This document shows positions 11,274 to 14,370 of a DNA stretch of 64,000 nucleotides, one piece after another. The stretch is from contig CACBXQ010000003.1 in assembly GCA_902543245.1 (NCBI GenBank), positions 35,285-99,284 on the forward strand. The letters run 5' to 3'. A program made the translations under genes and the position numbers. Below the pieces are notes generated by a model. It worked only from the letters and a program-made list of their open reading frames with translations. It had not been told where the DNA came from and made no database searches. Position 1 is the first letter of the stretch, and each line of letters begins with the position of its first letter. This stretch comes from an uncultured Pelagibacteraceae bacterium (GTDB lineage: Bacteria > Pseudomonadota > Alphaproteobacteria > Pelagibacterales > Pelagibacteraceae).

Positions 11274-11596
11274 CTTATCTTGTAAACGAAAAATGTATTA
11301 AATGTAAACTAATGGATTGTGTAGAGGTTTGTCCTGTTGATTGCTTTTATGAAGGTAAAAATATGCTTGTAATTAAGCCAGATGAATGTATAGATTGTGG
11401 CGTTTGTGAACCTGAGTGTCCAGTTGATGCTATTGTTCCTGACACAGAAAGTGGAAATGAAAAATGGTTGGAGTTAAATACAAAATATTCAGAAATTTGG
11501 CCAAATATTAGTGAAAAAAAGGATCCTCCAAAAGACCATTTAGATTATAAAGATGAAGAAAATAAATTTGAAAAATATTTTGAAGAAAACATTTAA
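11270..11596 (+). CDS. fdxA: Ferredoxin FdxA (3Fe-4S/4Fe-4S)
   Basis: 108 aa; [21 protein letters not shown] and [16 protein letters not shown]. Confidence 0.95.
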
Positions 11597-12353
11597 AAAA
11601 AAAAAAGTTAAAAAATCAATTAAAACAAAGGCTGTAAAAAAAAAAGCTGTCAAAAAAGTTTTAAAGAAAAATATAAAAGTAGTCAAAGTTTCTACAAAGC
11701 CACTTAAAGAAAAAAAAGTTGATAATTTAAGAATACCGAAAAATAACGAAATTAAGCCAGAAATAAAAAAAATAAAAAAACAGGACTCTGCAAAAAAAGA
11801 ATATAAAGTTAAAGATTATGTGGTTTATCCAAAACATGGGGTAGGACAGATTTTTGCAATTAGTTCCAAAACAATAGGTGGGATTGAGGTTCAGTGTTAT
11901 GATATTAAATTTGAAAAGGATAAAGCAATTGGTCTATTACCTATAAACAAACAAAATAATTTAAGACCATTAGCTACAATAAATCAAGTTAATAAGTCTA
12001 TATCAATTTTAAAAAGCAAACCTAAAATAAAAAGATCAATGTGGAGTAGAAGAGCGCAAGAATATGAACAAAAAATAACATCAGGTAAAATATATGATCT
12101 TGCAGAAGTGGTAAGAGATTTAAATAAAGGTGATGATATAATGGTAGATCAGTCTTATAGTGAAAGACAATTATTTGAAAAAGCTTATGAAAGAGTGCTT
12201 AATGAATTTCAAATTATTTTAAATTTATCAATAGAGGATACTCAAAAAAAACTTGATAAGGCGCTTAAAAGAAATCTTGAAACTCAAAACACTGTTGTTG
12301 AAAAAAAAATTAATAATACTTCTGAAGAGGAAATCGCCGACATTGCTGAATAA
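11553..12353 (+). CDS. carD: CarD-family transcriptional regulator with Lys-rich N-terminal extension
   Basis: [18 protein letters not shown] and [28 protein letters not shown] are CarD core motifs; start uncertain (ATG 11553 overlaps fdxA, TTG 11580 is an alternative). Confidence 0.88.
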
Positions 12354-12391
12354 AAAAAACGCTCCCCATAAATTTATGAGAAGCGTTTTTT
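12352..12391. terminator. Bidirectional Rho-independent terminator between carD and the 25-aa basic ORF
   Basis: A8-CGCTccccataaatttatgagaAGCG-T6 hairpin with U-tracts in both orientations. Confidence 0.8.
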
Positions 12392-12406
12392 AAAAAAGAA
12401 ATCTTA

Positions 12407-12484
12407 CTATCTTCTTCTTTTTTTAGCCTTTTTCTTTTTAGCTTTTTTCTTAGCTTTTTTAGCTTTTTTTCTTCTTTTAGCCAT
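12407..12484 (-). CDS. 25-aa extremely basic protein MAKRRKKAKKAKKKAKKKKAKKRRR
   Basis: Minus-strand ATG to TAG; AAAGGGAG Shine-Dalgarno 6 nt before ATG; upstream promoter-like elements and downstream terminator; below the ORF-track cutoff. Confidence 0.8.
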   Translation of the reverse strand: MAKRRKKAKKAKKKAKKKKAKKRRR

Positions 12485-12506
12485 CTTTAGCTCCCTTTTA
12501 TGTTTA

Positions 12507-12523
12507 CGAATCAATTTGATTCG
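12507..12523 (-). promoter_or_regulatory. Perfect inverted repeat CGAATCAA-T-TTGATTCG in the leader of the 25-aa basic ORF
   Basis: 8-nt perfect arms located between the predicted promoter and the Shine-Dalgarno. Confidence 0.55.
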
Positions 12524-12533
12524 TTGTTTCCTA

Positions 12534-12563
12534 ATTATTATTTTTTTTAGTAACTTGTGTCAA
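12534..12563 (-). promoter_or_regulatory. Predicted sigma70-type promoter for the 25-aa basic ORF
   Basis: Minus strand TTGACA (12563-12558), about 17-18 nt, TAATAAT (-10-like; AATAAT matches TATAAT at 5/6). Confidence 0.6.
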
Positions 12564-12672: not shown

Positions 12673-14370
12673 TTAGTAAAGTTTTTTAAAATTATTTATA
12701 TATTTTTTAATTATTTTATATCTTTTTAACTTTAATGTTGGTGTTAACATTCCATTTTCAATTGTAAATTTTTCATTTGCAACAAAAAATTTCTTAATAT
12801 TTTCGACTTTTGAAAGATTTTTATTAATATTTTCTATTTCTTTTTGAATTTCATCTTTTGATAAAGAATAATTTTCATTTAGCACCAGTAAGGCAGACAA
12901 GTAAGGTTTATTATCTCCAAATACTATTGCTTGATCAATTTTATTGGAATTAATTATCTCATTTTCTATTTTGACTGGAGAAATATTATCCCCACCTGGG
13001 GTAATTATTATATCTTTCTTTCTATCTGTTATTTTTAGATACCCATCTGAAAAATAACCAATATCTCCGGTGTGTAGCCATTTGTTCTTTATAACTTCTT
13101 CAGTTTCCTCCTTTTTATTCCAATACCCAAGCATCACATTTTCACCCTTAACTAGGATTTCTCCATCTTCAGCAATTTTTACCTCAACTCCTTTAAATGG
13201 AATTCCGACAGTTTCTACTCTAATAGCATTAATAGGATTACAGCTAATTACAGGAGATGCTTCTGTAAGACCATAGCCTTGCAATGTAGGCAATCCAATT
13301 GCATTAAGAAATTCACCTACATCTTTATCTAGCGCACCACCTCCTGAAACAAATGTTTTTAGATTGCCACCAAATTGATTTTTAATTTTTTTCCTAACTA
13401 GATACTCAAGAAAAAAATCTACAATTTTTTCTACAAAACTTAATTTAATACCTCTTATTTTTTTAATTCCTAAGTCTAACATTTTATTAATTAAAATTTT
13501 TTTAAATCCCTGTGTTTTTGTAAAACTTGCATTTATTTTTTGATACAAGTTTTGATAAAATCTTGGTACGGCAGTCATAATCTGAGGCTTGCATTCATTC
13601 ATGTTTTTAATTAATTTATCGATACTTTCAGCATAAAATATTTTTGCAGCGATACTTACTTGAACAAATTGTACTGTATGTTCATATGAATGAGATAATG
13701 GAAGCCATGTTAAAAATCTTGTTCGTTTAGCAGTTATTGGTTTAAGTAAATCAAATGCTCCTTCACAATTATTTAATATACCACCGTGACTTAATACAAC
13801 TCCTTTTGGATTCCCTTGTGTTCCAGAAGTATAAATAATACATGCAGGATCTTTTCTTTTTATATTTATTTTTGGTATTGATTTATCAACTTTGTCTAAA
13901 TCAAAAAAAAGATGATACAAGCTTGTGTATTCATCAATATTTATATTTAATTTTTCAAAAGAAAAAATTGTTAAATTTAGACTCTTTTGTTTGATAATAT
14001 TTTTAATTTTATCATACTGTATTTGATTGGATACAACTACGATAGAGGGCTCACAATCTTCAATAATATATTCATAATCTTTTTCAGAATAAGTGGTGTA
14101 TGTTGGTACAGTTATCAATTCAGATAACATTATTGCAAGATCTGCAATAAACCATTCTGGTCTGTTTTCTGAAATTAACAAACATCTTTGGCCCTTACTG
14201 CTATTTTTTTTTATCAACTCAGAAAATTTTTTTATTGAAAGAAAAGTTGCTTCCCAAGAAAAAGAACTTTTCTTATCAGATAAAGACTGTAAAAATATAT
14301 CTCTCTTTTCTTGAGATTGATATTTTAAGAAGAATAAGTCTAGTAAATTTTCAAAATTATTAAAATTCAT
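12673..14370 (-). CDS. Long-chain acyl-CoA synthetase (FadD-like AMP-binding)
   Basis: 565 aa; CIIYTSGTQGNPKGVVLSHGGI, GYGLTEASPVISCNP, WLHTGDIGYFSDGYLKITDRKKD. Confidence 0.9.
   Translation of the reverse strand: MNFNNFENLLDLFFLKYQSQEKRDIFLQSLSDKKSSFSWEATFLSIKKFSELIKKNSSKGQRCLLISENRPEWFIADLAIMLSELITVPTYTTYSEKDYEYIIEDCEPSIVVVSNQIQYDKIKNIIKQKSLNLTIFSFEKLNINIDEYTSLYHLFFDLDKVDKSIPKINIKRKDPACIIYTSGTQGNPKGVVLSHGGILNNCEGAFDLLKPITAKRTRFLTWLPLSHSYEHTVQFVQVSIAAKIFYAESIDKLIKNMNECKPQIMTAVPRFYQNLYQKINASFTKTQGFKKILINKMLDLGIKKIRGIKLSFVEKIVDFFLEYLVRKKIKNQFGGNLKTFVSGGGALDKDVGEFLNAIGLPTLQGYGLTEASPVISCNPINAIRVETVGIPFKGVEVKIAEDGEILVKGENVMLGYWNKKEETEEVIKNKWLHTGDIGYFSDGYLKITDRKKDIIITPGGDNISPVKIENEIINSNKIDQAIVFGDNKPYLSALLVLNENYSLSKDEIQKEIENINKNLSKVENIKKFFVANEKFTIENGMLTPTLKLKRYKIIKKYINNFKKLY

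Follow-up and report, generated by a model that had tools for sequence, protein, structure and literature searches.

The 25-residue open reading frame flanked by carD and a fadD-like gene in the window (the whole 64-kb stretch of Pelagibacteraceae DNA that was analyzed) probably encodes a polyanion-binding mini-protein resembling the tail of histone H1, and its translation is probably repressed by a dedicated, trans-encoded sRNA, RF01814. The gene is called KA here. Its features and those of its putative partner are collected in Table 1.

Table 1. Features of the KA locus and of the partner RNA (positions are those of the window, except for the last entry).
Feature	Position	Strand	Remarks
carD	11553..12353	plus	Convergent neighbor of KA; synteny anchor for comparisons
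Two-way terminator hairpin	about 12356..12393	minus (KA) and plus (carD)	Common to both genes; consensus AACGCTTCTCAT...GCGTTTT
KA	12407..12484	minus	25-aa K/R/A ORF; ATG start, TAG stop
20-nt segment GGGAGCTAAAGATGGCTAAA	12476..12495	minus	Perfect complement of the RF01814 loop region in the same genome
Shine-Dalgarno GGGAG	12491..12495	minus	6 nt before ATG
5'-UTR hairpin/palindrome ACGAATCAAATTGATTCGT	12506..12524	minus	CGAATCA conserved in the inspected lineages of the order
-10-like AATAAT	12534..12539	minus	AT-rich box kept in relatives
-35 box TTGACA	12558..12563	minus	Invariant in alignment A1
fadD-like AMP-dependent acyl-CoA ligase gene	12673..14370	minus	Upstream of KA, same strand; name from sequence
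RF01814 rhtB sRNA (L329)	G000:C1:138528-138611	minus	Outside the window, same genome

The KA transcription unit

The KA protein, MAKRRKKAKKAKKKAKKKKAKKRRR, comprises 19 Lys or Arg residues, five Ala, and one Met, for a charge of +19 over 25 residues. This minus-strand ORF of M, A, K, and R only was exactly as a preliminary description of the window had claimed, and the ribosome-binding site that it placed 6 nt ahead of the ATG was found as GGGAG. The promoter pair, perfect inverted repeat, and terminator that it also listed were all located, and they recur across the 79 readable loci of the genus (see below). TTGACA is separated from AATAAT by an 18-nt spacer; with 11 of 12 positions matched, nothing else in the scanned 1.4 kb resembled a promoter as closely. 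At 12507-12523, CGAATCAA-T-TTGATTCG forms a perfect inverted repeat, and no second palindrome of this kind occurs in the 1-Mb assembly. The two-way terminator was absent from the automatic terminator scan, yet it is conserved in relatives. Because promoter, hairpin, Shine-Dalgarno sequence, spacer, ATG, composition, frame, and terminator all recur in the 79 loci, chance was ruled out; as read from its sequence, the KA locus is a complete one-gene transcription unit.

In Pfam, NCBIfam, and Rfam, no family scored above its curated cut-off for the KA unit, and the Rfam matches that did appear at the locus (pT181, PyrG leader, and others, with E of 0.1-0.9) were discarded as chance. Used as a protein query against its own genome, the KA 25-mer had no match even at its own locus owing to low complexity; carD synteny and a covariance model of the leader were therefore used for finding homologues. 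The window carD itself has an unusually lysine-rich N-terminal extension (11553-11820), and this gene directly adjoins the lysine-rich KA.

The CGAATCA arm of the leader hairpin was constant in the lineages of the order that were inspected, and the 3' arm differed between genera. Within the genus, the stem shows hardly any variation, and the table of hairpin pairs accordingly had no excess of covariation over shuffles; the altered 3' arm of genera g2-g4 is only suggestive of an RNA structure. The hairpin may serve as an mRNA stabilizer or as a regulator-binding site. Its palindrome (12507-12523) also holds two GANTC sites, the CcrM-type methylation motif. Control by CcrM methylation through the palindrome was considered and dropped, as g2-g4 keep only one GANTC.

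Conservation of KA in Pelagibacter

The gap downstream of carD was compared in the 82 of 101 genomes of the genus sample in which carD was found. Three of these gaps were cut by contig ends, and each of the 79 readable ones carries a KA-type ORF of 16-32 codons for K, R, and A (P/T). GGGAG[C/T]TAAA[A/G]ATG was kept in all 79. The preliminary description had made the gene depend on the conservation of ATG, Shine-Dalgarno sequence, and stop among relatives; the comparison was run at the carD-fadD gap, and the gene withstood it. The sole short case is a 16-codon copy ending in ...KKKS (L022), possibly an assembly frameshift.

Over the 79 loci, the ORF contained AAA 788 times, AAG 330, AGA 409, GCT 290, and AAT or AAC not at all. 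Length differences amounted to whole codons, and third-position changes were overwhelmingly synonymous: the ORFs had about 1,100 codons for Lys and not one for Asn. In A/T-rich DNA, Asn codons would be expected to be common if there were no coding constraint, and their complete absence therefore argues that KA is translated. From these sequence comparisons, we infer that KA is expressed in vivo.

An independent scan of GTDB genomes placed carD and/or fadD beside the ORF in 80 of 80 fetched loci. KA-like loci in named public genomes were confined to Pelagibacteraceae, Pelagibacterales, or Candidatus Pelagibacter, which places the window in SAR11. The leader covariance model spans TTGACA to the fifth codon; of 198 genomes in the order, 120 matched it, and these belong to four genera. 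Thirteen well-assembled genomes lacked a leader match; 11 of them also lacked a carD match, and the other two (G255 and G277) have contigs that break off within carD or within the KA ORF. No true absence of KA was found within the genus among the genomes checked. That KA is a real gene, conserved across Pelagibacter, is strongly supported by these comparisons.

Longer probable orthologues in sister genera and a sister family

In five other genera of the family, all 12 carD loci hold a K/R-rich ORF of 21-58 aa in the same slot. The slot is occupied in the sister family by ORFs of 84-99 aa with KKAAPKKK repeats (e.g., MEELKVIFAKARKKAKKKAAPKKKRKAAKRKPAKKK...), and these sit behind TTGACA and the same CGAATCA...TGATTC leader. 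Genus g4 has KPAAKKK repeats; the 25-mer of the window has K and A and no P. The long forms are 60% K+R with Pro, and the short ones are 76-86% K+R without it. Even the longest orthologues have only about ten residues (MEELKVIFAK) ahead of the K-rich run. Sequence alone could not show orthology for a protein of such low complexity; synteny and the shared leader make orthology of the long and short forms likely. The Pelagibacter KA thus looks like an eroded, very short form of an H1/AlgP-tail-like protein found throughout the Pelagibacterales, and the change presumably ran from long to short. An earlier suggestion that KA is the tail of an H1 or AlgP protein reduced to a free peptide gained support from these progressively longer proteins of the KKAAPKKK type.

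At 28 carD loci from other alphaproteobacterial families, no lysine/alanine-rich mini-ORF was found in the equivalent place of the carD neighborhood; the arginine-rich frames seen there come from GC-rich DNA. Judged from carD neighborhoods, the gene looks specific to the order.

The partner RNA

A pattern search with the segment spanning the Shine-Dalgarno sequence and start codon matched, besides KA, a second, non-coding site. Rfam assigns this site to RF01814, the rhtB sRNA, with the model on the strand opposite to the pattern. The second GGGAGCTAAAGATGGCT site had been considered as another ribosome-binding site, and this was dropped when RF01814 was found on the opposite strand. In the genome of the window, RF01814 scored 83.4 bits (the gathering score is 55) on the strand opposite to GGGAGCTAAAG. 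The antisense stretch of this copy reads GAUAGUCCU-AUUUAGCCAUCUUUAGCUCCCGGUUUUUU-AGGGCUAUC, and its 13-nt apical loop, AUCUUUAGCUCCC, is unpaired in the sRNA fold (0.998).

Of 80 Pelagibacter genomes, 63 have a copy of RF01814 that exceeds the gathering score. It was not found in the other 17, most of which are incomplete, and G009 (92% complete) is among them. This early-branching Pelagibacter has KA with the standard ribosome-binding site (L009) and no RF01814 match. Outside Pelagibacter no match exceeded the cut-off, though the KA gene is present there. An AATGCA box lies upstream of 66 of 73 RF01814 copies and a -10-like box upstream of 72; a transcript of the RF01814 strand would have its 5' end just before GATAGTCC. 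Of the 73 copies, 28 have a U-tract after the hairpin on this strand, compared to six on the opposite strand, so termination directly at the hairpin is indicated for a minority of copies. Of the 63 genomes, 51 have the gene rhtB right after the sRNA; in the remaining 12, no adjacent rhtB was recognized. In strain HTCC1062, the rhtB element occupies 1297623-1297755.

Meyer et al. (2009) reported RF01814 before other genes as well; they named no target and discussed a role in regulation or as a terminator (PMC2704228). In the open-access literature, no SAR11 Ribo-seq, lysine-rich small protein, or RF01814 target was found.

Pairing between the RF01814 loop and the KA start site

In the genome of the window, 20 contiguous pairs can form, from the Shine-Dalgarno sequence through codon 3; the longest other complement to the loop on either strand of the window is 14 nt. 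By duplex energy, which leaves internal folding out of account, KA ranked first of the 64 long-ORF start regions in the window (-39.1 compared to -27.2 kcal/mol). Since -35 kcal/mol is attained by some 70-nt windows that lie outside start regions, energy alone is not decisive, and position and covariation decide. In three genomes examined in detail, GGGAGCTAAAGATG occurred only at KA and as the RF01814 complement. Genomes of the MP type have one internal mismatch, leaving 14 contiguous pairs, compared to 17-20 elsewhere. Complementarity to the target site, as is sought for a trans-acting antisense sRNA, was above background at the KA ribosome-binding site. Weak RF01814 matches were also seen at KA loci; they fall on the KA antisense strand because the loop of the sRNA is itself complementary to the KA start.

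Outside the genus, the spacer between the Shine-Dalgarno sequence and the ATG varies (GGGAGATAAG or GGGAGAAAAG in g5, GGGAGATAATG in g6, and GGAGAGTAAAG in g4). A spacer that is not constant where the sRNA goes undetected is expected if the sRNA holds the spacer fixed.

Covariation was first seen in three genomes in which the base preceding the AUG is A and not G; the sRNAs of these genomes have U in place of C. A search for the non-G allele in 399 genomes gave 16 with a match; 13 of these held two copies (one in KA, one in the sRNA), and in the other three a single copy was present and the partner was not recovered. At the base before the AUG, the 72 genomes in which both partners could be read comprised 59 with G:C, 13 with A:U, and none that were discordant. 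On a tree of carD and fadD, no fewer than three changes are required by supported branches, and the partner shows a matching change every time. A sign test on three independent events gave p = 0.25; these are too few events for such a test, and the claim of pairing thus rests on exact concordance and complementarity. Other variants retain G.U pairs, with C>T in the mRNA of G099 and C>T in the sRNA of G053 and G084. Compensatory changes in both partners, likewise sought for a trans-acting antisense sRNA, were therefore present. That the pairing between KA and RF01814 is real is strongly supported by the sequences of the two partners.

In genomes with Pro at position 2 (L037, L050, and others), Lys 3 is encoded by AAG, which pairs with CUUAG of the sRNA of the same genome; genomes with Ala at this position use AAA. 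This is possibly a second co-varying site.

Alternative explanations

Stand-alone basic micro-proteins of 20-35 aa, mostly K and R, are known as ribosomal proteins of fixed sequence (eL41, bTHX, and bS22). KA is like eL41, bTHX, and the mycobacterial bS22 and bL37 in size and charge, and these features, its strong ribosome-binding site, and its single conserved copy per genome would fit a small basic ribosomal or ribosome-associated protein with no chromatin-like function. We regard this as unlikely, however, because ribosomal proteins are fixed, whereas KA varies from about 21 to 99 aa within one order through the gain or loss of K/A units, and its longer orthologues are H1-like KKAAPKKK repeats. 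Profile libraries and a search of PDB sequences with the long form also gave no significant match. It is extremely improbable that KA is merely a chance ORF and that what is conserved is instead an RNA, structured or antisense. The 5' hairpin and the Shine-Dalgarno segment are indeed the most conserved parts, but synonymous third positions, the lack of Asn codons, and length changes by whole codons speak for a coding sequence, and covariation in the hairpin was no higher than in shuffles.

Control might also run the other way, with the KA mRNA acting as a regulator or sponge of an RF01814 leader upstream of rhtB, a gene for a LysE/RhtB-type exporter. The Lys/Arg ORF would sense charged Lys/Arg tRNA, and ribosome occupancy would determine the amount of KA mRNA able to pair with the leader. 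LysE-type exporters move basic amino acids, the KA ORF is 76% K+R, and rhtB lies after the hairpin in 51 of the 63 genomes, often with the U-tract reaching into its start codon, all of which count in favor of this arrangement. It is nonetheless quite unlikely: the sRNA is kept in the 12 genomes without a recognized adjacent rhtB, the sister genera and sister family keep KA without a detectable sRNA, the A/P-rich repeats of the longer forms are needless for a sensor, and RF01814 also occurs before other genes (PMC2704228). In a related and very unlikely scheme, the KA transcript and the RF01814 leader are a trans-acting amino-acid-sensing pair: translation of the Lys/Arg-only ORF would report the supply of basic amino acids and set expression of the exporter through RNA pairing, with the peptide as a by-product or a secondary effector. 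Ribosome-binding sites are simple sequences, and RF01814 had been described solely as a structured element, so the complementarity could in principle be a coincidence or a copied ribosome-binding site; we consider this highly improbable, given the perfect 20-nt complement, the lack of any other start region in the window that comes close, and allele changes that agree between the two partners in three or more lineages with zero discordant genomes.

Proposed mechanism and relation to known systems

In the preferred reading, repression of KA by RF01814, the open 13-nt loop and its flank would pair with the KA mRNA from the Shine-Dalgarno sequence through the start codon, which would block binding of the 30S subunit and repress synthesis of the peptide. 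Initiation is typically blocked by pairing that covers the Shine-Dalgarno sequence and the AUG, and because both are covered here, repression is the most likely outcome; we infer the direction of control accordingly from geometry. Like isolated tails of H1 and AlgP, the peptide would bind polyanions (DNA, RNA, or polyphosphate) by means of its charge. Analogy with those tails, which served as the comparison for polyanion binding (PMC9239181), makes this its most likely activity.

The KPAA tails of AlgP and PhaF and the C-terminal domain of eukaryotic histone H1 share with KA a strong positive charge and, in the g4 and sister-family orthologues, a Lys/Ala/Pro-rich sequence with KKAAPKKK/KPAKKK repeats. 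The Pelagibacter KA differs from them in its length (16-32 aa), its lack of Pro repeats, and its far higher Arg content. AlgP has a structured (helical) N-terminal domain (PMC9239181), whereas the KA ORF starts straight into the K/R run; lacking such a domain, KA is not filed as AlgP, only as working like its tail. The likeness to H1 and AlgP is one of composition, and no family model matched KA, including its long form.

RF01814 is the same RNA as the rhtB sRNA described earlier (PMC2704228), here with its loop matched, with covariation, to the region where translation of an unlinked gene starts. It shares with trans-encoded antisense sRNAs that mask the Shine-Dalgarno sequence or start codon a hairpin loop complementary to both elements of an mRNA encoded elsewhere, and it differs from that general class in having one apparent dedicated target and up to 20 contiguous pairs. 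Masking of the Shine-Dalgarno sequence by sRNAs and H1-like tails are known kinds, and the sRNA itself was already known; the KA mRNA as its partner is new within the open-access literature.

Few cells in the ocean are as abundant as SAR11 bacteria, which possess only a small number of transcription factors and are believed to rely on post-transcriptional control (PMC13198564). An orphan structured RNA of this group, described in 2009 without a target, here gains a specific, evolutionarily tested mRNA partner, and the gene that it pairs with seems to record how a histone-H1-like protein shrank, step by step, until only a bare tail of 25 residues was left.
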